NCBI GenBank assembly: GCA_905235085.1
Contig: CAJOKD010000019.1
Coordinates: 23,219-87,218, forward strand
Origin: an uncultured Bacteroidales bacterium
Lineage (GTDB): Bacteria; Bacteroidota; Bacteroidia; Bacteroidales; UBA932
DNA length: 64,000 nucleotides
Reading direction: 5' to 3'
The position numbers and the translations under genes are program-made. Positions 16,329 through 33,267 of this stretch are shown piece after piece. The notes below the pieces were generated by a model that saw only the letters and a list, made by a program, of their open reading frames with translations, did no database searches and was not told where the DNA came from. The first letter of the stretch is position 1; every line of letters starts with the position of its first letter.

Positions 16329-17666
16329 ATGGTAGCACTCATCAAGACCCTGCAAGTCATCCTCGCACTTTCCATCCTCATCATCATCCACGAATTCGGT
16401 CATTTCCTGTTCGCGAAGATGTTCGGGATCCGGGTGGAGAAATTCTTCCTGTTCTTCGACGTGGGCGGGACGAAGCTGTTCAGTACCAAGGGCAAATGGT
16501 TCACCAAACTCTGTCCGAAGGCTGCATCCTGGCAGACTGAATATGGCATCGGCTGGCTGCCTCTGGGCGGCTATTGCAAGATCTGCGGGATGATCGACGA
16601 GAGCATGGACCTGGAGTCCATGAAGAAGGATCCCCAGCCTTGGGAGTTCCGCACCAAGCCAGCCTGGCAGCGCCTGCTGGTGATGTGCGGGGGCGTCCTG
16701 TTCAATTTCATATTCGCCATAATAGCCTATATCTCCATCCTGGCGATCTGGGGCAGCGGCTACATCGAGAACGAGGGCAACGCCATCTACACCGATGAGC
16801 TCGGAATGGAGATGGGCTTCCGCAACGGAGACCGCATCATCAAGATGGACGACTATGTTCCTGAGAATTTCGGTATGTTGCAGGCCGACCTGGCCAGGAG
16901 AGGGATCGAAAAGGTGACCGTCCTGCGTGACGGGGACACCTTGGACCTCTACATCGACCGCTCAATGATCGGAGACTTCATGAACGATCCGAACGTATTC
17001 GACCTCGCAGTGCCTTTCGTCATAGATTCGGTGATGAAAGCCTCCCCGAACTATTCCTGCGGCCTTGTCCATGGTGACAGGATAGTGGCATTGGACAGTG
17101 TCAACACCCCGTTCGTGCAGGATTCAAGGAGCTACCTTGCCTCGGTACAGGGAGACACAGTAATGGCTACGGTCCTCCGCGGTGCCGACACCCTCAGCAT
17201 CCCTATGGCGGTCGACACCTCCGGAAGGCTGGGAGTTTACATGCAGGTCCCGGGAATCAAGACCAAGGAATATTCAGTCGCGAGCGCCATCCCGGCAGGT
17301 TTCAAACTGACCTTCGAAACGATCGGAGGATATCTCCGCGACCTCAAGCTGGTTGCTTCGCCGAGCACCAAGGCTTATGAGTCCGTAGGGAGCTTCATCG
17401 CCATCGGACAGGTATTCCCTGCAACATGGGACTGGTACAGGTTCGTGAATATCCTGGCCCTTCTGTCCATAATGCTGGGAGTGATGAACCTCCTGCCAAT
17501 TCCGGGACTGGACGGAGGACACATCGTCTTCTGCCTGTACGAGATGGTCACCGGGCGGAAGCCAAGCGACAAATTCCTGGAGATAGCCCAGATCATAGGC
17601 ATGCTCCTTCTATTCCTACTGATGTTCCTCGCCTTCGGAAACGACATCCGCAGGCTCATCCATTGA
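16329..17666 (+). CDS. rseP: RIP metalloprotease RseP (site-2 protease family)
   Basis: An intramembrane zinc protease of 445 residues. The first transmembrane helix carries HEFGH (21-25). Two PDZ-like regions occupy the middle, and the C-terminal membrane segment has the third-ligand motif LPIPGLDGGH. In other bacteria RseP cleaves anti-sigma factors after a first periplasmic cut; the substrate here is unknown. Linkage to dxr is widespread in bacteria and supports the call. Confidence 0.93.
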   Translation: MVALIKTLQVILALSILIIIHEFGHFLFAKMFGIRVEKFFLFFDVGGTKLFSTKGKWFTKLCPKAASWQTEYGIGWLPLGGYCKICGMIDESMDLESMKKDPQPWEFRTKPAWQRLLVMCGGVLFNFIFAIIAYISILAIWGSGYIENEGNAIYTDELGMEMGFRNGDRIIKMDDYVPENFGMLQADLARRGIEKVTVLRDGDTLDLYIDRSMIGDFMNDPNVFDLAVPFVIDSVMKASPNYSCGLVHGDRIVALDSVNTPFVQDSRSYLASVQGDTVMATVLRGADTLSIPMAVDTSGRLGVYMQVPGIKTKEYSVASAIPAGFKLTFETIGGYLRDLKLVASPSTKAYESVGSFIAIGQVFPATWDWYRFVNILALLSIMLGVMNLLPIPGLDGGHIVFCLYEMVTGRKPSDKFLEIAQIIGMLLLFLLMFLAFGNDIRRLIH

Positions 17667-20219: not shown

Positions 20220-21362
20220 TTAGGACAGGGCATTGCATCCCGCAGTTATGTCGAAATAAACCTCCATTTCTTTCGGCTTCTTATCCTGGGCGGACTTTAC
20301 TTCAAAGCAAAGCCGGTCCAGTTTCTTATCGCCCACGCTTATCAGATGCTGGGCAATCATCTTCGATTCCAGATTCTTCAGTTGGAACAAGATGTCGGAA
20401 ATGACATACTCAAGGTGGACGTATCCGTCAGTCTCGGTGATCACGATGGGATGCTCCTTGTCTTTTCCTATATGGAATTCGCAGTCCTCTTTATCAATCA
20501 ATTCTGAGATATCTATCTTGTTGTCATAGAAAATGCGGGATGCGCCAATAGCATCGCCCAGATCTTCAATATCGAAATTGTACCTAATTATTCCTGTTGC
20601 CACCATTCGGTCAACCTCAGTTCTGGCCGCCACCCTCGGATTGGGCTGCTGGACATTGATATTCGCCGGCCATCCGAAAACCCAGGCCTCAAGGTTTCTG
20701 ACATCTACACCTACCTCGCGGGCAGTCTCACACATCAGCTCGCAGTAGTCATAATAGACATCCTCGAACTTTGTTGACTCAGCATAAGTCACTGTATTGT
20801 CAACAGGGAGATAGTAGAAGAACGGATTCCGTCCTGCTTCCGGCATCAAAGCAAAATGCACAGGCTGCATATTCTCATCATAAATCAGAGGACGATTGTT
20901 TAAATCCATATCAAAGGTAAGGAAGTAAAGCAACTTAGTGAAGTAGCTGGGGCCAATGCCATAGAAATAGTTTTCACCTCCTCTCTTCAAGGACGCAATG
21001 GCACCTTCAATTCTCTCAATGTCGGTCTCGGAGTTGCGTAGCAGCGCAGCAAGTCTCTCCAGTTTGGGCATAGTTGTATTGCGGTCGTTGTTCAGGGCAA
21101 TTCCCTCAGCCTGAAAACGGCTGATCCCGCCCCACATGATAGTGGCCACGAAACCCTTGTATAGATCCTCACGGAAGAGTCTGACTACATCTTCACGAGA
21201 CAATTCAGCAGGGAGATTCCGGACAACCTCTGCAAAATCGCCATCAGTGGCTTCTGCTCTTCCGACAGGATTGGCGAACCTGCCTTCGCGCCAATGGATA
21301 GAGGGTTGGACATAGTTGTTGATGTCGTCGATGTGGGTTTTGATTAAGTTGATAAATGACAT
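20220..21362 (-). CDS. OGG-like helix-hairpin-helix protein
   Basis: A 380-residue protein not recognised by name. Residues around 130-150 read NYFYGIGPSYFTKLLYFL, a helix-hairpin-helix pattern (GIGPxxxxKLL) like that in 8-oxoguanine DNA glycosylases. It is followed by RPLIYDENM, where the family's Asp would fall. The C-terminal 80 residues are charged and unassigned. This suggests a base-excision-repair-like or DNA-binding role, by inference only. It is the last gene of a minus-strand run; the similar gene at 21457 lies 94 bp upstream. Confidence 0.6.
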   Translation of the reverse strand: MSFINLIKTHIDDINNYVQPSIHWREGRFANPVGRAEATDGDFAEVVRNLPAELSREDVVRLFREDLYKGFVATIMWGGISRFQAEGIALNNDRNTTMPKLERLAALLRNSETDIERIEGAIASLKRGGENYFYGIGPSYFTKLLYFLTFDMDLNNRPLIYDENMQPVHFALMPEAGRNPFFYYLPVDNTVTYAESTKFEDVYYDYCELMCETAREVGVDVRNLEAWVFGWPANINVQQPNPRVAARTEVDRMVATGIIRYNFDIEDLGDAIGASRIFYDNKIDISELIDKEDCEFHIGKDKEHPIVITETDGYVHLEYVISDILFQLKNLESKMIAQHLISVGDKKLDRLCFEVKSAQDKKPKEMEVYFDITAGCNALS

Positions 21363-21456
21363 AGTATAGGTATTATAACAATGTTAATTTTATTACCTGA
21401 AAACCAGGCAAACCTGATGAAGACCATTGCTCGGAAGAATCAGAGCTTAACCCATC

Positions 21457-22068
21457 CTACTCCCAAGGAAACATCTCGTGGTTCTGTTCCATCATGCTAC
21501 CGAGTTTCCAGAACACAGAGTCGAGAATCTTCATATATCCGATTCCCTGACAGTTGAATCGCTTGCGGAAACTTCCCACGATCGGATGGTCATTAAGCGA
21601 ACGATAGGTATCAATAATATCAAGATAGATGGAATGCTGGTGGTCCAGGCGTGTCTCATCAGGATTGAATGGTTTCTGGAACACCAGGCCGACCATTCGG
21701 TCATAAATCGGATACTCGGCGTCATCCAGGAGATTGAGCATCTTTGTCGCGAAAGAGAAATAAGACTTCCCCATTGCAGGCCTTAACTCTTCCGTCAACT
21801 GCCTCGCACCTACGCCAGTATATGTATTACTGAGCGATTCCATCTTGGAGAAGAATGCCGCCTTACCCTCCCCCGGAACTATCCCCATCCCATAGAAAGC
21901 AGAGAAAGCCCACTGGAACAAAGGGTTGCGACTGACATCCCCTTTCCGGAACTCATCCTTGAGGAAAGAATAAACCGCCACATTGGTAGCGAAATAAGCA
22001 TCTTCAAAAATCGAAGGGTCATTGGTTAAATAATAATCCAACAACCTGATAGCATTGTTATTAATCAT
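21457..22068 (-). CDS. Small OGG-like helix-hairpin-helix protein
   Basis: A 203-residue protein of unknown function. The centre reads KSYFSFATKMLNLLDDAEYP then IYDRMV. This is the same Phe-x-x-Lys-Met/Leu-Leu...Ile-Tyr-Asp arrangement as in the neighbour at 20220, so the two probably share the OGG-like fold and may derive from one family. No signal peptide or membrane segment is visible. It could act with its neighbour; nothing in the sequence gives a substrate. Confidence 0.55.
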   Translation of the reverse strand: MINNNAIRLLDYYLTNDPSIFEDAYFATNVAVYSFLKDEFRKGDVSRNPLFQWAFSAFYGMGIVPGEGKAAFFSKMESLSNTYTGVGARQLTEELRPAMGKSYFSFATKMLNLLDDAEYPIYDRMVGLVFQKPFNPDETRLDHQHSIYLDIIDTYRSLNDHPIVGSFRKRFNCQGIGYMKILDSVFWKLGSMMEQNHEMFPWE

Positions 22069-22154
22069 ACAGAATAAAATATTAAAAACTATTCTTCGGG
22101 CTCTTCATTTAATCATCTAGACTTTGAGGTCAAGCGTCTCAAGTGGCAACAAGA

Positions 22155-22208
22155 TTCACATCGGCTCTAATCTATGGGCTCAATAAACCCATTAATACCA
22201 GATTCCAG
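22155..22208 (+). repeat. Imperfect direct repeat, copy A
   Basis: This stretch aligns with 29135-29187 in the same orientation with one gap. Identity is strong in TTCACATcGGcTCtAAT and CAATAAAcCCAT and weaker between, about two thirds overall. It lies in the 247-bp non-coding gap between the genes at 21457 and 22316. The rest of that gap shows nothing I can assign. Confidence 0.35.
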
Positions 22209-22315
22209 GGTTTCTTCGTAAAACTCTCCCCTGCGGGTTTAAAACGATCGATGGACAGATACCACGCCGTCACATCGAAGAAATACTGTAATAAGCATGT
22301 CGCTTTGTTCCTGAG

Positions 22316-22993
22316 TTATCTCGATCTTTGCCATGTCCAGACAATATGATCAAGATGTCTGGCTGTCATATCAGGATAGCCATGCTCTCGGTAATACTCG
22401 ACCGCATTACGGAATAGCGTTTTAATCTGTTCTTTAGTCAAAGGATGCCCCACTGCAGTCTCAGAAAAGCGTGTTAGCCAAGTGTCCACTTTAACGCCAT
22501 CCTCGTCACCGGCAAGCATGAAGAAATAGTCTACAGCAACGTTCTGACCTTTGATACTCTTCAAAGCATTCTTCAAATCGTCACTTTCCTCGCATAAACG
22601 GTTAACATCTTGAAAAGTCTCAATTCCAAACCTTTGAAAGACTTTCAAATACTCAAGAAATGCTTCCGCTTTGAGGATGCCGTTTCTCGAACTGGTTTTC
22701 TGCTTATTTTTTAATGCTTTCGCAAGCCTATCCCCATCATATCCTTCCAGACGCTTGACAAGATCCGATATTTTTACCTGCTCCTCTACACTTGGGAGTT
22801 TGTGGGGATCAGGAGCAGTCCGGACAATCTTGGTCAAATCGCAGAATCTGTCAAGCAGTGGACTAACAACAGAATAATATCTCGCCTGTATAGAAAAGAC
22901 TGCATCTAAAGCACATAACCCGACACAGGAGTAATACTCCATGTCAGGAATAGGAGCTAATGCCCGGTCACAATGTCTTAGAAACAACTCCAT
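22316..22993 (-). CDS. Putative HhH-GPD-like protein
   Basis: About 225 residues from the ATG at 22993, chosen because it lies just after the upstream membrane-protein stop and homology-like sequence begins there (MELFLRHCDRALAPIPDMEY). The frame stays open further upstream but overlaps that gene. The segment LKSIKGQNVAVDYFFMLAGD then VKVDTWLTRF resembles the hairpin and following Asp of HhH-GPD DNA glycosylases. No iron-sulfur cysteine cluster is seen. Function unknown; it is the last gene of the SPFH-GYF2 cassette. Confidence 0.5.
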   Translation of the reverse strand: MELFLRHCDRALAPIPDMEYYSCVGLCALDAVFSIQARYYSVVSPLLDRFCDLTKIVRTAPDPHKLPSVEEQVKISDLVKRLEGYDGDRLAKALKNKQKTSSRNGILKAEAFLEYLKVFQRFGIETFQDVNRLCEESDDLKNALKSIKGQNVAVDYFFMLAGDEDGVKVDTWLTRFSETAVGHPLTKEQIKTLFRNAVEYYREHGYPDMTARHLDHIVWTWQRSR

Positions 22994-22997
22994 CTCG

Positions 22998-23357
22998 CTA
23001 CTTTTCTGTTGATTTTGCGCTGTACATTCCATAGATAACGCCCCAGGCGATAATAGCAAGAAGAAGAACGACAACAATGTAAATGTCAACCTTGTATTCA
23101 AAGCACGAGAATATGATGTTCGCAGCCGCAATTGCAAGGACCATAATCCAAGAAAAGACCTTGATATTAACGCCCCTGTTTGCATTTACATATTTCAATC
23201 CCATAGCAGGGATAATGACACTCGCTATAGAAACGAATCCAATCGCTAGAGAAATCCAATTCCTGCTCTCAGTTTCAGGCGCAATTATCTCACATACAAA
23301 CCCCAAGAGAACCGCAATAGCAAGGGCCAGTATGATTTTTATACCATCAATCTTCAT
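22998..23357 (-). CDS. Small four-helix membrane protein
   Basis: A 119-residue protein made almost entirely of four hydrophobic helices (about residues 5-25, 33-53, 65-85 and 88-110) with short charged loops and a Lys/Glu tail. No family is recognised. It sits one base from the GYF2 gene before it and 4 bp before the HhH-like gene, so it is part of the same transcript. Its likely role is in the membrane together with the SPFH and zinc-ribbon proteins, an inference from context. Confidence 0.6.
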   Translation of the reverse strand: MKIDGIKIILALAIAVLLGFVCEIIAPETESRNWISLAIGFVSIASVIIPAMGLKYVNANRGVNIKVFSWIMVLAIAAANIIFSCFEYKVDIYIVVVLLLAIIAWGVIYGMYSAKSTEK

Positions 23358-23358
23358 A

Positions 23359-23700
23359 TTACTTCATTTTAGCAAGGAAAAACAGTTTGTTAACCTCCGG
23401 GACCTGGGCAGCGGGTGCCCAAACACTCATGCCAGGTTTCCACACCAAGGTCTCGGGCGTCAAAAGATCATTCTGCACCAATTTTACTAACTCCTCATCG
23501 GAGAAAGGGCCAGCCTGCGTGCCGTCGACGGCAAGGTATGTCTGACTCTGCTCTTTTATTGGAGGCGGTGTAGGAGCGGTCCCCTGCTCATTCGGCTGAG
23601 GCATTACGCTATTGATCATTGCCGGCATCTGCTGAATCATTGACATTCCGATGCCTAATTCCATCATCTTTTCGATGAAGCTTCCGCTGTCTTCTGTCAT
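23359..23700 (-). CDS. GYF_2 domain protein with Met-rich N-terminus
   Basis: A 113-residue protein from the ATG at 23700, two bases after the upstream gene's stop. Residues 10-35 are Met-rich (MMELGIGMSMIQQMPAMINS), a proline linker follows, and the C-terminal half is a GYF_2 (DUF4339) domain: TYLAVDGTQAGPFSDEEL then TLVWKPGMSVW. GYF_2 domains are thought to bind proline-rich segments or act as adaptors. The same domain occurs in the next two upstream genes. Confidence 0.7.
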   Translation of the reverse strand: MTEDSGSFIEKMMELGIGMSMIQQMPAMINSVMPQPNEQGTAPTPPPIKEQSQTYLAVDGTQAGPFSDEELVKLVQNDLLTPETLVWKPGMSVWAPAAQVPEVNKLFFLAKMK

Positions 23701-23702
23701 AG

Positions 23703-24038
23703 CTAAATCATTGAGATAATGTGAAGACAATCTTTGATGAACTTCCATTCCGGCCAGCCTTGTGTCCAAATATAGAAGTCAGGAGTGATGGCTTCAGCCT
23801 TGAGCAAATCCCGGATTTGCGCCAAAGTAAATGGACCTCGTTGTTCGGTCCCAGCTGCAAGTACATACTGCTCTTGCTCCTTATTTTGGAAAACCGGGAG
23901 GACAACGTGCGGTTGAATGCCGAACTGCGGCACCTCGGTCTGCATTGCCTTGATGCTGTTCTTGGCCTGATCGGCCAAAGCTTGCCACTGATCTGAAGCA
24001 ACAAGCTTATCCAAAGTATTAAAATCTAACTGTCTCAT
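23703..24038 (-). CDS. Small GYF_2 domain protein
   Basis: 111 residues. The N-terminal half is helical (FNTLDKLVASDQWQALADQA). The C-terminal half is a GYF_2 domain: YVLAAGTEQRGPFTLAQI then YIWTQGWPEWKFI. There is no signal or membrane segment, so it is probably cytoplasmic and may be recruited by the SPFH protein encoded 5 bp upstream. Confidence 0.7.
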   Translation of the reverse strand: MRQLDFNTLDKLVASDQWQALADQAKNSIKAMQTEVPQFGIQPHVVLPVFQNKEQEQYVLAAGTEQRGPFTLAQIRDLLKAEAITPDFYIWTQGWPEWKFIKDCLHIISMI

Positions 24039-24043
24039 AGTAA

Positions 24044-25588
24044 TTACGGCTTTGGGATTGGAGGTACACCAGGAATGGGCGGAGGAACCGTACCAGGAGG
24101 AGGTCCGAACAACGCGCTCAGGTCAGGAATAAGCTTCATCGGTTGCCAAGATGGCATACCCGTGCTCCACGCAAGGGTATCACCATTAATCTGGCCCGCT
24201 GAGAGCATCTGACTAAGGGCGTTTACATCACAAGGGCCATACTGAGAACCGTTTATTGCAAGATACCATATAGCCTGTTGAGGCGAAGGAATAGGAGGTG
24301 GAGTCTGCTGAGGTTGGCCTGCAGAAGCCATTCCTTGCTGCATTGTCTGTCCCATTTGATTCATCATTCCTCCGACCTGCTGACCCATCGCTGCGCCCAT
24401 CATCATACCGGTCATCATGCCGGCAGGATTCATATGTCCATCCCCTCCGCCGAAATTCATCGAACCCATCTGCCCGATGTTTTCCATTCCTGTCTTGAGG
24501 ACTTCCGCCTGCTTGTTGATACTGTGTGCGTTGATATATGCGGACTCGCTGCCCAGACCAGCCTGTTTCGCAGCCTGCTCCGTTTGTGAATGCTGAGCAA
24601 ACTGGCCTTCCTCACGCATCCTAGCTGTCGCATCTTTTATGTGCTCCATCTGAATCTGCGCCATTTCCTTCGCAGTCTGGTTGCGAATGTCTGCATCAGT
24701 CCGCATCGTCTCTCGCTTAATCTCGAAACTGAGAAGAGTGGTCTTCTCATTCTCAAGGTTGTAAAGCTGTGCCTGATCTTCAGTGAGACGCTTGAGTTTC
24801 TGGTAACCTTCGCTATCCTCATCATATCGGATATCTTCTATGAGGATATCGCTTGCGAAGATGCCGAAACGTTGCATTATCCGCTCCTGAACACGGGAAA
24901 GAATATAATGCCCCATCTCACCTATGAGCTGGTTAAAGTGCATGATGAAAATGCTTGTATCCCTTGGGGCAGTAGCAACAATCTGCTTAATTTCCTGAGT
25001 CAAGAGAGTCTTCACTTTCTCACGGAATTCCTCCATCTTTGTGTCGGATGTCCCCCATGCTTCCAGGAAGTATTTCACCATGGCAGGATCTGTCGGGACT
25101 TGGAATGCCATAGCCCCTTTTACCGCGACTTCAATGTCATAAGCTTTATACTCCGGTTCTGAAGGAATCACTCGGAAATACGGAATGGTGAATGGAAGCT
25201 CCATTCCACGAGCGAGATTGATATAATAGACCTCAGCTTGGAAAGGAGTGCCCCCTTTATAAGCCATACCTACGATTGAGGCGAGTACCGGCATATTATC
25301 TGTTCTGATAATATCGTCATAAGGCCCCACGATCACATCATACTCCCCTTTGTTCTGATAAAGGAACACTGCCGCCTGGCCCGGGCGCACTCGCAGGCTG
25401 CTCCCATAGCGGATGTTGTTTTCCTTGCGTGAAGCACCTGCTTCCGCCATTGAGTTTGGCCGCCACTTCCAAATGAGAAAATCTTTCTCATCACAACGGA
25501 TGGCATCCATTATGCCACCTTCTTTCCCACGGACTTGGCTTGAAAGCCCTTCCTGATTCGTTTTCTTATTAAAAAGACCCATCTTCAC
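24044..25588 (-). CDS. SPFH domain protein with C-terminal GYF_2 (YdjI-like)
   Basis: A 514-residue membrane-scaffold-type protein. An SPFH (stomatin/prohibitin/flotillin) domain covers about residues 45-245, followed by helical coiled-coil sequence (about 255-350), a Met/Gly-rich low-complexity stretch (about 375-425), a GYF_2 domain (about 440-490: WYLAINGSQYGPCDVNAL) and a Pro-rich tail. Databases often label this family virion core protein; no phage context is present. Bacillus YdjI is a relative working with PspA-type membrane maintenance. Function here is inferred as organising a membrane assembly with the neighbouring GYF2 and zinc-ribbon proteins. Confidence 0.85.
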   Translation of the reverse strand: MKMGLFNKKTNQEGLSSQVRGKEGGIMDAIRCDEKDFLIWKWRPNSMAEAGASRKENNIRYGSSLRVRPGQAAVFLYQNKGEYDVIVGPYDDIIRTDNMPVLASIVGMAYKGGTPFQAEVYYINLARGMELPFTIPYFRVIPSEPEYKAYDIEVAVKGAMAFQVPTDPAMVKYFLEAWGTSDTKMEEFREKVKTLLTQEIKQIVATAPRDTSIFIMHFNQLIGEMGHYILSRVQERIMQRFGIFASDILIEDIRYDEDSEGYQKLKRLTEDQAQLYNLENEKTTLLSFEIKRETMRTDADIRNQTAKEMAQIQMEHIKDATARMREEGQFAQHSQTEQAAKQAGLGSESAYINAHSINKQAEVLKTGMENIGQMGSMNFGGGDGHMNPAGMMTGMMMGAAMGQQVGGMMNQMGQTMQQGMASAGQPQQTPPPIPSPQQAIWYLAINGSQYGPCDVNALSQMLSAGQINGDTLAWSTGMPSWQPMKLIPDLSALFGPPPGTVPPPIPGVPPIPKP

Positions 25589-25918
25589 TTACTTCTTTTC
25601 TAAATATGCTTTACATATCGCTGGCACATCAGGTGCAAGAATATAACTTGGGTTTCTCCAACCTTTAGTTGTTGAATAGTTGCTGGATTTACCCCTTTCC
25701 TCGACAGAAAGAGAATCCATTCGATCACAAACACTTTTCCACAATGCTCGATCGATGTAGTAATGCCTCCCATCAATACCGATGGTCATGATTGTCGCCT
25801 CGTTCTCGTACTTGATGTAAAAAAAACTCTCTCCACCAAGCATATCGATTCGTTTAACAACAGGTTTTCTCAGCCAAGTCAAAATGCGACCGAACTGAAC
25901 GGATTTTAATTCTGGCAT
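25589..25918 (-). CDS. Hypothetical protein of the SPFH cassette
   Basis: A 109-residue soluble protein with no recognised domain. It is basic at the N-terminus and contains aromatic-rich strands (SFFYIKYENEATIMTIGIDG) and a C-terminal ILAPDVPAICKAYLEKK helix. Its stop directly abuts the SPFH start, so the pair should be co-expressed. It could be a partner or regulator of the SPFH protein; nothing in the sequence decides this. Confidence 0.55.
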   Translation of the reverse strand: MPELKSVQFGRILTWLRKPVVKRIDMLGGESFFYIKYENEATIMTIGIDGRHYYIDRALWKSVCDRMDSLSVEERGKSSNYSTTKGWRNPSYILAPDVPAICKAYLEKK

Positions 25919-26066
25919 ATCATATATACTTTATGTAATTATCAATCAGTCCTGCATCCATAAGAAGAAACTCTATATTATGAGCGCAGAGTAACTTATA
26001 GCTAACTTAGTATCCATTCATGATCCTATTGTTTTCGTAATACTATCATTATTGATAACACGTTGC

Positions 26067-27029
26067 TCACTCGACTTTGTTTATTGAGGCGAGCACAGAT
26101 TCTCGCACTTCCGGATCAGAAATACTAGCTGCCACCACTTTAGCTTGTTGTATTTCGCCTTGCGATATCAAATACGAAACTTCTTGAGCCGAAATATCAT
26201 CGATTAGTTTCGTCACATCTCCTGAATACTTATGTGCGGCTGACTTGGCTCCTTGATAATCATTGTTATGAATGCACATCTGTATCTGATCCTGAACGTT
26301 ACTATCACTCTTAATCCCTAACGTGATGACGATTCCTGATACTAGAAAGCAAAGAGCTCCAACAATGATAGCAGCGCCATATGATGCCCAGAAATCTTTT
26401 TTCCTCTTTTTCGAATACGCACTCTTTTTCTTGCCCTCTTGGTCTAATAATGACTTATAATGGCCGAGAAGGTCTCGAATCTCACTATTTGTATTACTAT
26501 GTCTTTCCAATGCATGATAGGCTTGAAGAGACTTCCCGCGCCACGCATTTCTCACCGGTTCGCGCTTAGCATCTTTCTCATCCGTTCCGATAGCAGCATA
26601 ATTGGAGTAAGACAATTCGAGCAATTGTAATAACCCTTCTTTTGTGGAGGGTATTGTAAAAGTGTTAATTATTGTTGCTTGTTTTTCGTAATTAGAAACA
26701 TGACTCAATTTATCTTGAAGTTCGGCAATTTGCTTCCGTGCCATAATGCTAGCATAATTCTCCATCTCCAGGATAAACCCACATTCATGGCACTGGAGTG
26801 AAGCATCTGGTATTATGGCTCCACAATTTGGACACTTTCTTCTGTTTTCTCGGCTGCTCTGTCCTTGAATACTGCTGGTGGAGAATGCGCTCTCTAAATA
26901 AAACTCAATCTCATCATCGTCAATCCCATAAGCTTTGGCTTTTTTGAATATTATTTCCCTTTGCTTTGTTGTTAATCCACCACTCTCCTTGGCAACGTTA
27001 ATTAGTTTTTCAATATCAGGAGGATGCAT
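26067..27029 (-). CDS. Zinc-ribbon membrane protein
   Basis: 320 residues from the ATG at 27029; an in-frame start at 27083 adds 18 residues overlapping the upstream gene. An N-terminal helical domain precedes a zinc ribbon (CPNCG and CHECG, Cys66/69/80/83), a conserved helical region beginning TIINTFTIPSTKEGLLQLLE, a basic stretch and one transmembrane helix (about 218-240). The C-terminal tail has repeat-like helices. The domain order matches the split gene upstream, so the two are paralogues. Zinc-ribbon/TM proteins of this kind (compare Bacillus YdjG) occur with SPFH proteins. Confidence 0.65.
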   Translation of the reverse strand: MHPPDIEKLINVAKESGGLTTKQREIIFKKAKAYGIDDDEIEFYLESAFSTSSIQGQSSRENRRKCPNCGAIIPDASLQCHECGFILEMENYASIMARKQIAELQDKLSHVSNYEKQATIINTFTIPSTKEGLLQLLELSYSNYAAIGTDEKDAKREPVRNAWRGKSLQAYHALERHSNTNSEIRDLLGHYKSLLDQEGKKKSAYSKKRKKDFWASYGAAIIVGALCFLVSGIVITLGIKSDSNVQDQIQMCIHNNDYQGAKSAAHKYSGDVTKLIDDISAQEVSYLISQGEIQQAKVVAASISDPEVRESVLASINKVE

Positions 27030-27075
27030 ACTAATTTGAATTATAATCTTTGGGTATAACACTTCCCTGTGAATT

Positions 27076-28068
27076 CTATTCACTAGGTTCCTTTAATGAA
27101 ATAACAAAACTCTCCACATCCTTATCATCTACACAGTATTCAACTGTAACATCATCTGATACTACCTGCTCTTTTGACGGATAATCAACCGTTGTCTTTC
27201 TCCGAATTCGTAGGTTACCATAGTATTCAAAATCATAATAGTATAGCGGAAAATCATCATATTCATCTAATGTCACTATAATTTGGTTTAACCGCCCATT
27301 CTTATAATCGTAGTGATATGTGTTTGAGCTTAGCTTACTTAATGGGGCTTCATCTTTTTGGAATAACGTATCGATTTGAGATCTTTCTAGCAGATACTTT
27401 ATTTTAACTGTTGAAAGCAAATGTCCTCTATTACCATAGTCATATATAACCTCCTTAGTCGGAATCCCTTTATAAGATATTATTTCTTTAGCCAATAAAA
27501 CACCACCATATTCGAACTCATAAGTCAAGCTATAATAAGGTATATTAATTCTCTCTATGCGATCTGCAAATCTAATTACTTCTGAATTTCGAATACCCGG
27601 ATAACCATTTTCCCATGCTTTCCACATATAATGCTGTGAGTAGTAATCTTGAACAAAATCTGGAAAGCGGAATTCGTAAGGCTCTGGTATTGTTATATCG
27701 TTCATGACTTTCAGGTAATCGGACCAAACCATTACGCCTGATCTAAGATTTACCGATCGCTCCATTCTAAGAGACTTGTCTGCCCTATAATACAGAGTAT
27801 AACTCGAGTCAGGCTCACTCGCTAAGCCAACATAATGATCTTTTAGAGTATCTTTAAGTGGATAAAACGACATCCGGTCATTTAACAAACTGTACTTTCC
27901 TATTTCATCAACATACAGATGTATAGAATCAGGAGAATTAGTCTTGCCGCACATTATTAAAGCCTCTTTAATAAGACCATTCTGAGCCAAGATTTCTATT
28001 GCTTTGACCTCGCGCATATAGCATATCAGCAGCATTCTCATAAAGTCCTGCTTCAGTAAACACTTCAA
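27076..28068 (-). pseudogene. Zinc-ribbon membrane protein, 3' part after frameshift
   Basis: This frame carries the C-terminal domain of the gene whose 5' part is at 27968-28684. True homologous sequence begins near 28014 with REVKAIEILAQNGLIKEALI, which continues the upstream tail KAIEVFTEAGLYENAADMLY as a second helical repeat. The rest is a beta-rich extracytoplasmic domain of about 270 residues with many Tyr/Asp (TYHYDYKNGRLNQIIVT), unrecognised. Residues before 28014 in this frame are an artefact. Whether a functional product is made depends on whether the frameshift is real. Confidence 0.55.
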
Positions 28069-28684
28069 TTGCTTTATCCTCCCTTCCTAAAAAACCAAGA
28101 AGTCGAGCTGCTACTTGTTCGTTCCCGCTATTGACAAGCAGACTTGGCCAATCATAGAATAATACAAAAGCCACCAGCAATGCTAAACCAGCCAGACAAG
28201 AAAGGAGAGTCCAACGCCTCTTCTTATAATTGCCCGACAGTTTTGTAATAGCCTTTTTATCACCTAGAACCTTGTATTTTTCTAAGAGATCTTTTACTGA
28301 AGCATTCTCTTTTATCCCCTCCAGTCGGCGATAGGATTCCGCCGCCTTGCCCAACCATGCAATAGTCAGTTTTTTATCCCCAGACTCTTTGCATGCCTCG
28401 TAGTTTGAATATGAAAGATGAAGCAGGCGAGAGAGAGACTCCGCCGTATTCGGAACAGGAAATGAGTTAATAATGGATGCCTTCTTCTTTGACGACGACA
28501 CCCCTGGGCTAAATACTTTATCCACTGCAAGAAGCTTTTCCTGTAAGTCCAGGATTGCATCAGTCGTGCTCTGGCTCCTTGCCGTTTCATTCATTAATGT
28601 ATAACCACACTCCGGGCATTTTAATTCCATACCCGACAATGGTGCCCCACAATTAGGACATAAGTTCTTTCTATCTACGGCCAT
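27968..28684 (-). pseudogene. Zinc-ribbon membrane protein, 5' part before frameshift
   Basis: 238 residues as read: a zinc ribbon at the N-terminus (Cys9/12 and Cys23/26, CPNCG and CPECG), the conserved helical region ASIINSFPVPNTAESLSRLL shared with the gene at 26067, a basic KKRR segment, a transmembrane helix (about 157-175) and a helical repeat ending AADMLYA. Reading then shifts frame near 28010 and stops. Two bases missing from a GAGAG run would explain it, since restoring them joins LYA to REVKAIEIL. The intact protein would have about 550 residues. Confidence 0.6.
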
Positions 28685-28712
28685 TGTTTAGTGTTATTAT
28701 GTTCCAAATATC

Positions 28713-29057
28713 TTATGCAATAGAATCCAATTTACCCCTGTATTTGTATGTGACAGAATGGCTCTCCTCATCATACTGCACCTCAAAGACCAGGTCTGTC
28801 CCAGGAGCATCGAGATGATTTGCAATGATCCATCGCTTCAGCTCTGCATTAGATACCCCACCTCTCCGGCTATAGTTAACCAAACGTCTCAGTGAAATCC
28901 GAGGATGATTTGGGAGAACAAAGTGCACAGCCGCCACTGCCTGGGGATCCTCACCACATATTTCTCTCCAAACATCAGTTGCTGTACTATTGCCAATAGC
29001 GACGTGACCAAGTGGTGTCACCCCTCGCACAACACGCAGTAAAACAAGTTTATCCAT
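28713..29057 (-). CDS. Hypothetical protein, first gene of the cassette
   Basis: 114 residues from the ATG at 29057 (MDKLVLLRVVRGV). An upstream in-frame start at 29126 would cover the promoter element at 29103-29110. The protein is soluble, with strand-rich ends and a central helix PQAVAAVHFVLPNHP then RISLRRLVNYSRRGG. No family is recognised. It is 28 bp before the zinc-ribbon gene and appears to lead the transcript that runs to 22.3 kb, perhaps with a second promoter in the 148-bp gap at 25919-26066, where I see no clear element. Confidence 0.55.
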   Translation of the reverse strand: MDKLVLLRVVRGVTPLGHVAIGNSTATDVWREICGEDPQAVAAVHFVLPNHPRISLRRLVNYSRRGGVSNAELKRWIIANHLDAPGTDLVFEVQYDEESHSVTYKYRGKLDSIA

Positions 29058-29102: not shown

Positions 29103-29151
29103 CAAAAATAAACCTCTCCTTGACACGAATCAAGTTCACATTGGTTCAAAT
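29103..29151 (-). promoter_or_regulatory. Promoter of the zinc-ribbon/SPFH cassette with shared upstream motif
   Basis: On the minus strand TATTTTTG (29110-29103) matches the TAnnTTTG -7 element. TTGA (29133-29130) lies 19 bp further up as a -33 element. Overlapping and extending upstream of the -33 is the sequence ATTTGAACCAATGTGAAC (29151-29134). It recurs almost unchanged at the promoter of the gene at 33210 (19 of 21 bases), so it may be an operator. Confidence 0.5.
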
Positions 29152-30579: not shown

Positions 30580-31644
30580 CTATTCGAACAATTCCGTGGC
30601 CTGGCGGAAGACTTCGTCGATGGCGCGCTGGTCGGAGATCGTGGAGGAGTCCTTGCGACTGGCCGACTGCTTGCTCTTTGGCTTAGGCTTGTCCATTGGT
30701 GCGGTAGGTGCGCCCTGTCCGGACACGACAGAAGGCGCCGGAGAATCAGGGAGTACAACGCTATCATCCTGCGAGGCCATGGTCGCAACAGTATCTGCAA
30801 CAGCTTCGGGTTCAGCAGGTTCTCGAGAAAGGAGATGCCTCTCCAACGTAGGCACCAGCGCCATAAGAGCAATGAATAGGATGAATATCACTCCAGCTAC
30901 AACCGACCAGTTGCTCTTCAGTGCCTTTGTAACCTCCGCCACAGAAGCATACCGGTTCTCCGGCCTTGGGGAGCAAAGCTTACGAACGACTGAAGAATAC
31001 TTCCTCACAGGGAACAGAGACATCACCATTCCCAGGGAATACAAGTCACTCCGCACGTTCGCCTTGCCGCCCTCACGAACCTCCGGAGCTGCATAGACTG
31101 CTGTCCCGGCCGGGTTCTTCAAGATAGAGGAAGAGTCCGCGTCTGATAGGCCGAAGTCAATGAGCCTGACATTGTTGCCGGAATATGTAACGAGGATGTT
31201 CGAAGGTTTCAAATCCCTATGCAGGACCTGCCGGGAATGCATATACGACAAGGCAGAGCAAATCTCCCCCACTATCTTGTCGCAGACGCTCCTTTCCGGT
31301 TTCCCCTCGGTCAGGAAAGACTCGAGGGTTCGCCCGTCCACCCATTCCATCTCAATGCAATTGCCGAGCGAAGGGTCCTTTATGAATGAATAATACTCAC
31401 AGATATTCTCGTGCCTAAGGGAATACCCTATTTCGAATTCTTTCTTGAGAAGCCTCTCATATACAGGCACTTCCCTATATTCCTCCTTAAGGCACTTCAG
31501 CACTCGGAAACGCCCGGAACGGTCGATCCTCCAGATTTCGGAATATCCTCCTTCGGAAGAACTGACAAGTTCCCTTGCATCAGTGGCAGGGGTCGCTTCC
31601 GCCGAAGGCGTATCAAAGAATTCCGAGGTATTATCCATGCCCAA
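30580..31644 (-). CDS. Transmembrane Hanks-type Ser/Thr protein kinase
   Basis: 354 residues. The N-terminal kinase domain has a Gly-rich loop SEGGYSEIW, Lys50, Glu69, the catalytic loop HRDLKPSN (142-149), DFG (163-165) and APE. All key residues are present, so an active kinase is expected. A transmembrane helix (247-266) leads to a Pro/Ser-rich extracytoplasmic tail of about 85 residues ending in QRAIDEVFRQATELFE. The tail is shorter than that of the related protein at 62635 and may be truncated. Met1 or Met3 can start it. It is divergent from the gene at 31677. Confidence 0.85.
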   Translation of the reverse strand: MGMDNTSEFFDTPSAEATPATDARELVSSSEGGYSEIWRIDRSGRFRVLKCLKEEYREVPVYERLLKKEFEIGYSLRHENICEYYSFIKDPSLGNCIEMEWVDGRTLESFLTEGKPERSVCDKIVGEICSALSYMHSRQVLHRDLKPSNILVTYSGNNVRLIDFGLSDADSSSILKNPAGTAVYAAPEVREGGKANVRSDLYSLGMVMSLFPVRKYSSVVRKLCSPRPENRYASVAEVTKALKSNWSVVAGVIFILFIALMALVPTLERHLLSREPAEPEAVADTVATMASQDDSVVLPDSPAPSVVSGQGAPTAPMDKPKPKSKQSASRKDSSTISDQRAIDEVFRQATELFE

Positions 31645-32631: not shown

Positions 32632-33210
32632 CTACTTGATTATATCCAGTACGTTGAGGCCCTCAGCTTTGGCCGCGACGTAGGGCGGAGTGCTTGTACC
32701 ATCCGCCCGGAGTACGGAAGAGATGAAAAGCGGGACGCCCAGGATGAATTCGGAGGACTCGAATCTGTCGCCCTTGTGAAGCTTGGAGTTTTCTGAAGAA
32801 AGCACCTCGAAGGAAGTCCCTCCCAGGAACTTGATCTTCACCACCCTGTTCGGTGCCCAACCCAAGATTACTTCCTCTCCGACATTCAGCGAAGAAGCCT
32901 CAACCGTCTTGCTGGTGAAGAACGTGGACACGACCGCTCCGGAATCCACCAATGCTTTCCGGAAAGCCTTGAAGTCGTGATAACCCAGATAACGGGACAA
33001 CGTGTCAAGTGTAGATATCCTGGGGCAGGATGAATATGACACATAGCCCCAGAGCCTCTTGAGGGTGGATGCTGAGATCAACTCTCCTATCTCGCGTTCA
33101 ACCACGAATGAGAGAAGTTCAAAGTCGGTCGTCGTGGACAGACGGTGGCCGAACTTTTCCTCCACCTGGCGGAGCAGTTCGGCGAGTTCCGGTATGAAAG
33201 GTGTTCCCAT
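32632..33210 (-). CDS. Putative DNA-binding protein, Bacteroidota-specific
   Basis: 192 residues. The N-terminal half contains helices like a helix-turn-helix, REIGELISASTLKRLWGYV then STLDTLSRYLGYHDFKAFRK, a pattern seen in many Bacteroidota hypothetical proteins. The C-terminal half is beta-rich (VGEEVILGWAPNRVVKIKFL). No enzyme motif is visible. Its promoter shares a 21-bp motif with the SPFH cassette, so both may answer to the same regulator or this protein could itself be that regulator. The latter is speculation. Confidence 0.55.
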   Translation of the reverse strand: MGTPFIPELAELLRQVEEKFGHRLSTTTDFELLSFVVEREIGELISASTLKRLWGYVSYSSCPRISTLDTLSRYLGYHDFKAFRKALVDSGAVVSTFFTSKTVEASSLNVGEEVILGWAPNRVVKIKFLGGTSFEVLSSENSKLHKGDRFESSEFILGVPLFISSVLRADGTSTPPYVAAKAEGLNVLDIIK

Positions 33211-33217
33211 GATGTTG

Positions 33218-33267
33218 CAATATTACGGAATATCACCCGGTCCTGTCAAGTCCACAATGGTTCAAAT
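33218..33267 (-). promoter_or_regulatory. Promoter of the gene at 33210 with shared upstream motif
   Basis: Minus strand TAATATTG (33225-33218) is one mismatch from TAnnTTTG and lies 8 bp before the ATG. TTGA (33249-33246) is 20 bp upstream. The adjoining ATTTGAACCATTGTGGAC (33267-33250) repeats the motif seen at 29134-29151. Confidence 0.45.

Follow-up and report, generated by a model that had tools for sequence, protein, structure and literature searches.

A predicted SPFH-GYF2 membrane operon with a putative DNA glycosylase at a variable chromosomal site of a Bacteroidales bacterium

Described systems and the cassette

Conflict systems that are centred on a GTPase or kinase and assembled from zinc-ribbon (ZnR) and transmembrane (TM) parts are reportedly the subject of a 2020 study by Kaur et al. 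They are among the closest described counterparts of a locus that we analysed in a 64-kb window (the whole stretch of 64,000 nucleotides) from an uncultured Bacteroidales bacterium. The locus is a cassette of ten minus-strand open reading frames (ORFs; g1 to g10), which runs from 29057 to 22316 with little space between genes. We tentatively read it as an operon, located where the chromosome varies among relatives, that joins a predicted membrane SPFH-GYF2 scaffold to an effector that is probably exchangeable. In this genome the effector is a predicted DNA glycosylase that would act on invading DNA.

The ZnR/TM systems and the cassette have in common zinc ribbons, TM parts, kinase/PP2C variants and GYF pairs, and a DNA-glycosylase domain appears among their rare effectors in the accessible text of PMC7159879. 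Unlike those systems, the cassette has no GTPase or GAP1, and SPFH occurs in that text only within the title of a reference. By analogy, the cassette would fit the ZnR/TM modular logic with SPFH as its core.

The Bacillus subtilis pspA-ydjGHI operon provides a second likeness. It combines an SPFH protein that lacks a TM segment of its own with membrane partners; YdjI depends on YdjG/H at the membrane and is itself required to bring PspA there (accessible parts of PMC8581546). The cassette, too, has an SPFH protein and ZnR/TM partners. The sequence-only reading of this DNA had likened the genes to a PspA-linked membrane stress system, and this link is not supported: PspA (PF04012) had 0 matches in the cassette's own genome, which is 99% complete, in a search whose control was positive in 9 of 14 genomes, B. 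subtilis among them. The cassette also differs in having GYF2 instead of a zinc-finger motif on the SPFH tail, and it adds GYF2 adaptors, an outer domain, a glycosylase and site contents that vary.

The anti-phage DNA glycosylases Brig1 and Brig3 demonstrate that phages can be stopped by base excision (PMC11078745, PMC13160076, both in part). They share with the last cassette gene, g10, base excision (predicted in g10) and defence-type surroundings. However, they belong to the uracil-DNA-glycosylase superfamily whereas the g10 model is HhH-GPD, and the accessible portions of both papers do not mention a scaffold alongside Brig. The model of g10 does not show the fold of that superfamily; it is HhH-GPD over its full length. 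Helicobacter pylori MagIII, a 3-methyladenine glycosylase that to our knowledge lies outside any membrane operon, has ~11% identity to g10. Among the matches listed, we found no published description of an SPFH scaffold combined with a DNA glycosylase.

The cassette and its predicted glycosylase

The operon opens with g1 (28713–29057), an unknown protein of 114 aa, followed 28 bases later by g2 (27968–28684), a zinc ribbon with one TM segment, and by g3 (27076–28068), an outer domain. A second ZnR/TM protein of ~320 aa related to g2 is encoded by g4 (26067–27029), and after 148 bases comes g5 (25589–25918), another unknown protein of 109 aa. The scaffold gene g6 (24044–25582) encodes an SPFH domain (PF13421, 3e-21), a Met-rich tail, a GYF_2 domain and a proline-rich C-terminus. 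It is followed at gaps of 5, 2 and 1 bases by the GYF_2 adaptors g7 (23703–24038, 111 aa) and g8 (23359–23700), the latter with an N-terminus like the SPFH tail, and by the four-TM protein g9 (22998–23357, 119 aa). Another 4 bases on lies g10 (22316–22993), a predicted monofunctional HhH-GPD DNA glycosylase.

Most of this composition had been proposed from sequence, and the ORF list bears out where the cassette ORFs had been placed and on which strand. Pfam finds the SPFH and GYF_2 domains of g6 and the GYF_2 domains of g7 and g8. The relatedness of the two ZnR/TM proteins is likewise upheld: g2 and g4 match at 37% over 173 aa, and each has one TM segment and a ZnR match under the Pfam cut-off that is backed by paired CxxC motifs. 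The four helices of g9 reappear as four predicted TM segments. Presumably, the N-terminus of g4 is TerB-like. Proline-rich peptides are ligands of GYF domains, and such stretches are present in g6 and g8. Searches of 8 of the 10 ORFs (all except g5 and g7) plus g11 and g12 gave just the GYF2 part of GltJ and weak ZnR matches in NCBIfam, and no convincing match in PADLOC, where two weak ZnR matches (Cas12f, REase_II) stood alone. No antitoxin or methylase was recognised in the operon by Pfam or ORF reading.

The idea that the terminal gene is DNA-glycosylase-like gains support from a structural model. With its start corrected to 22993, as in most close relatives, g10 encodes 225 aa. Its sequence is not matched significantly by Pfam, NCBIfam or PADLOC (one weak sub-cut-off Pfam match, POTRA_2, 0.0084), and it would represent a remote or new HhH-GPD family. 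The model has the HhH-GPD fold over its full length, with the hairpin, the GPD loop and the following helix set in an all-alpha two-domain fold, and the class assignment depends on this full-length structural alignment. Asp170 is invariant (17 of 17 sequences) and directly precedes helix 171–181. From the fold and the VDT context, it would be equivalent to the catalytic Asp of EndoIII, for which the genome has a separate gene. HhH-GPD enzymes without the hairpin Lys remove the base only and do not cleave the strand.

The g10 family is scarce nearby: 3 of 300 genomes of the genus have a match, as do 1 of 393 in the order and 2 of 395 in the phylum, one of the last two weak. It is found on plasmids of Bacillus, Rhodococcus and a few others (23 records) and in phages PBS1, AR9 and Goe21 (6 records). 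The PBS1/AR9 'N-glycosylase' (phrog_29694) falls in the sequence family of g10 at 2.7e-33, yet it belongs to phages whose DNA contains uracil (PMC8150378, in part). In AR9, 3.3 kb separate the family member, g110 (L036:3923-4633), from the Ugi gene, and a small membrane-protein gene ends 2 bases before it; its neighbours g109 and g111 are among the transcripts most abundant at 5 min in the available text of PMC5312081, where g110 is not named. Some g10 relatives bear an extra domain. One of these, P0030, has a g4-like N-terminus (37% over 73 columns, 1e-6 against a small reference set).

A correction is needed for g2 and g3. Searching with g3 yielded four proteins: the 313-aa form of the window and three of 542–545 aa that have g2 at the start and g3 at the end. 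The relatives' proteins join the two, and therefore the gene here is divided between two frames, with g2 as the N-terminal portion and g3, in a different frame, as the C-terminal outer domain. The split is either an assembly error or genuine damage to the gene; the copies in relatives are intact. Compared with the relative P0088, identity is 252/267 over residues 1–270, 94/146 over 271–420 and 118/122 over 421–542, so that one hypervariable block of ~150 residues in the outer domain has diverged much further than the sequence on either side. Such a block would fit a contact surface. P0088 and P0001, a relative of g10 at 97% identity to it, are both listed with a longest contig of 51,781, which suggests, without proving, that they share one contig.

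The stretch 20220–22993 holds three successive glycosylase-fold candidates: g10 (HhH-GPD, by structure), g11 (a weak structural match) and the OGG-like g12 (20220–21362, minus strand; PF21790). A minus-strand feature at 21457–22068 lies between g10 and g12.

A variable site and a shared promoter element

The cassette lies between a 445-aa gene (16329–17666) and a Ser/Thr kinase gene with one TM segment (30580–31644, minus strand), 12.9 kb apart. Replacement at a fixed site and a setting among toxin-antitoxin (TA) modules had been raised, and the comparison supports a site with exchangeable contents: four relatives carry both markers on a single contig with different contents between them. The G096 site (15.7 kb) holds AbiEi/AbiEii, an OGG-radical-SAM-SPASM fusion, a g5 homologue, 2-TM and FtsK-gamma genes, an OGG protein (74% to g12), a DUF6577-nucleotidyltransferase and HepT. 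The G066 site (14.4 kb) holds g11, a 753-aa frame, a g5 homologue, genes that include 2-TM ones, and an OGG fragment; position and promoter were the grounds for aligning the 753-aa frame with the G096 fusion. G185 (7.6 kb) has DUF6577, a HepT-like frame and four larger genes, and G073 measures 3.3 kb. Thus TA and OGG-fold genes are plentiful in two sites and few or absent in two. Homologues of g5 (42–45%) occur in the OGG-radical-SAM operons of G096, G320 and G066, and g11 occurs in G320, G096, G066, G235 and G305. The fusion at L044:10162-12339, at the same chromosomal site and with a g5 homologue and membrane proteins encoded after it, has a homologue at L043:4997-7255 and a similar frame at L046:13073-15334 (domains tested in L044 alone).

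AT-rich composition had been taken as a sign of transfer. GC content in 1-kb windows is indeed low at 19–31 kb (0.347–0.494, against 0.528–0.582 at 14–19 kb), but it is also low at 33–36 kb (0.449–0.482), so AT-richness alone does not set the limits of an island.

The glycosylase also recurs in two relatives without a detected SPFH gene. In G017, read on the kinase side, HicA/HicB-like genes (by eye) are followed by glycosylase, ZnR, AAA, FHA, PP2C and STK genes beside the same kinase. In G320, on another contig, g11, the glycosylase, a 315-aa gene, a ZnR/TM gene and LPP20-like genes precede an early contig end. From this context, a defence role is plausible, and the cassette probably belongs to a set of interchangeable systems whose function would be to protect the cell from invading DNA. 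It is very improbable that the system kills its host, with a sensed event directing the glycosylase at host DNA so that the infected cell dies. HicAB nearby and AbiE-type genes at the site in relatives would suit such suicide, and a review of the PabI restriction glycosylase argues in its accessible part that base excision is toxic to the cell (PMC10273834). However, the operon has no recognised antitoxin or methylase, and lone plasmid copies would be costly.

Ahead of g1 stands an operator-like element of 19 bases, TGAACCAATGTGAACTTGA (29130–29148, minus strand), a TGAAC-N5-TGAAC direct repeat that ends at a -33-like TTG and is followed by TATTTTTG. Bacteroidetes promoters carry a TAnnTTTG-like box. 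The own genome has 2 copies at up to 3 mismatches (the reversed pattern, 1): that of g1 with 0 mismatches and one with 2 (33246–33264, minus strand) preceding the gene of a 192-aa protein (32632–33210, minus strand). At up to 2 mismatches the element occurs in 25 of 200 genus genomes, and the reversed pattern gave one match in all. It sits ahead of g1, the glycosylase in G017 and G320, OGG-radical-SAM genes and the ZnR gene that opens the operon of G305; G109, despite its scaffold core, has no copy within 2 mismatches. The loci read contain 38 distinct sites. In 13 cases the gene that follows is a homologue of the 192-aa gene, and in 30 a TAnnTTTG-like box is suitably spaced from the element; the other 8 include the second site of the own genome, which has no exact TAnnTTTG box after it. 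The 192-aa protein, a candidate regulator, has no Pfam match. Its HTH-like N-terminus (by eye) and its gene's pairing with the element suggest that it binds there. In relatives, the element also occurs ahead of lipoprotein-like genes.

The scaffold with and without the glycosylase

SPFH matches were found in 19 of 300 genus genomes, the own included, and close ones only in G305 and G109. Both have SPFH, g7, g8 and the four-TM gene in the same order (84–85/84/85/78% in G305; 70–72/43/58/34% in G109). The G305 operon begins with a ZnR/TM gene and includes LPP20-like genes, DUF6175 and a g1 homologue (31%). In G109, a TerB-like/ZnR gene lies just upstream of the core and shikimate-kinase-like and LysS-like frames (by eye) just downstream. 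A ZnR/TM gene is directly upstream in 7 of 8 such SPFH loci (G109, G092, G150, G221, G162, G251 and G010) and at the operon start in the eighth, G305. A more distant locus, L029, has zinc ribbons on the SPFH and adaptor tails where the cassette has GYF2 on both, and tail type seems matched inside each operon.

Several observations weigh against the reading we favour. None of the 18 other SPFH-positive genus genomes, including both with the close core, has a glycosylase match, so the scaffold exists without it; 5 more kinase-marker genomes bring the total to 0 of 23, in a search that included no positive genome. The g7 homologue of G109 (61 aa) stops ahead of the GYF2 domain. Bacillus and Rhodococcus plasmids and the phages PBS1/AR9 carry members of the g10 family separately from SPFH. 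The G073 site is nearly empty, with just a 482-aa gene and a 585-aa acyltransferase gene, so site contents are not all defence-like. Alignment of g10 with the genome's own EndoIII by hhalign was not significant, g10 has no PF00730 match, and Foldseek with its model gave no match at E 0.001. Given the g2/g3 split, this cassette copy may be damaged. Moreover, distant SPFH operons of the genus with secreted DUF6175 and related proteins suggest an envelope role.

A shared promoter might therefore be all that joins the two parts, with a stand-alone, Brig-like glycosylase gene having landed behind an SPFH envelope-maintenance module in a hot spot. We consider this the main alternative, only slightly less probable than the favoured reading. 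The 18 unmatched genomes, the plasmid and phage copies and the gathering of unrelated TA genes at the site all suit it. It is opposed by the start of g10 on the same strand 4 bases after g9, by the two relatives that again pair the glycosylase with ZnR genes under the same element, and by the fusion of one g10 homologue to a g4-like domain. The linkage proposed from sequence is present here and, in part, in G320, but it is not obligate; the core is seen both with and without the glycosylase, and the sample has only three close core copies.

It is distinctly unlikely that the cassette is an envelope-stress system like pspA-ydjGHI whose last gene merely repairs stress-damaged DNA. The SPFH and ZnR/TM genes, the dependence of YdjI on YdjG/H and the distant operons with secreted envelope proteins speak for it. 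However, no PspA was found in the genome, the varying site contents and rare dedicated operator are unlike housekeeping repair, and a genomic EndoIII is already present. The G109 adaptor without GYF2 and the near-empty G073 site weaken our favoured reading about as much as the P0030 fusion and the G085 locus strengthen it; in both G305 and G085, SPFH genes have a kinase gene and a homologue of the 192-aa gene as neighbours.

Building on the gene order, domains, differing site contents, model fold, invariant Asp and two-copy element, we infer how the favoured membrane scaffold and glycosylase might work. The 192-aa HTH-like protein would control the cassette and its own gene via the TGAAC repeat. 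The variable outer domain of g2/g3 would sense an envelope event such as phage contact or DNA entry. SPFH subunits would assemble beneath the inner membrane, held by the ZnR/TM and four-TM proteins, with GYF2 domains binding g6 and g8 at their proline-rich stretches. At this place the glycosylase would be recruited or released and would generate abasic sites in DNA that enters the cell, perhaps at modified bases, removing the base alone and leaving strand breakage to other enzymes. The most far-reaching form is rather unlikely: a membrane-anchored base-excision immunity with an SPFH-GYF2 platform, a diversifying outer sensor, a new HhH-GPD family docked at DNA entry, its own two-site regulator and effectors (HhH, OGG, OGG-radical-SAM, kinase/PP2C/AAA) swapped at one slot.

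If the favoured reading is true, a flotillin-like membrane scaffold, a class whose bacterial role is unsettled, would be tied to DNA base excision, and one glycosylase family common to bacterial defence-type sites, plasmids and uracil-DNA phages would have been named. The rare operator gives a short gene list for a possible single response, whose regulon and trigger are directly testable.

Two further arrangements involve SPFH genes. An operon that recurs in the genus (L065, L066, L067 and L068) has a secreted DUF6175-type gene (Pfam in L065), a secreted protein of 334–348 aa, a ZnR/3-TM gene, SPFH-GYF2 and a lipoprotein-like gene, and the SPFH part may descend from an envelope operon of this kind. 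In G085 (L074:5915-9703), an SPFH-GYF2 gene directly adjoins homologues of the kinase and 192-aa genes.

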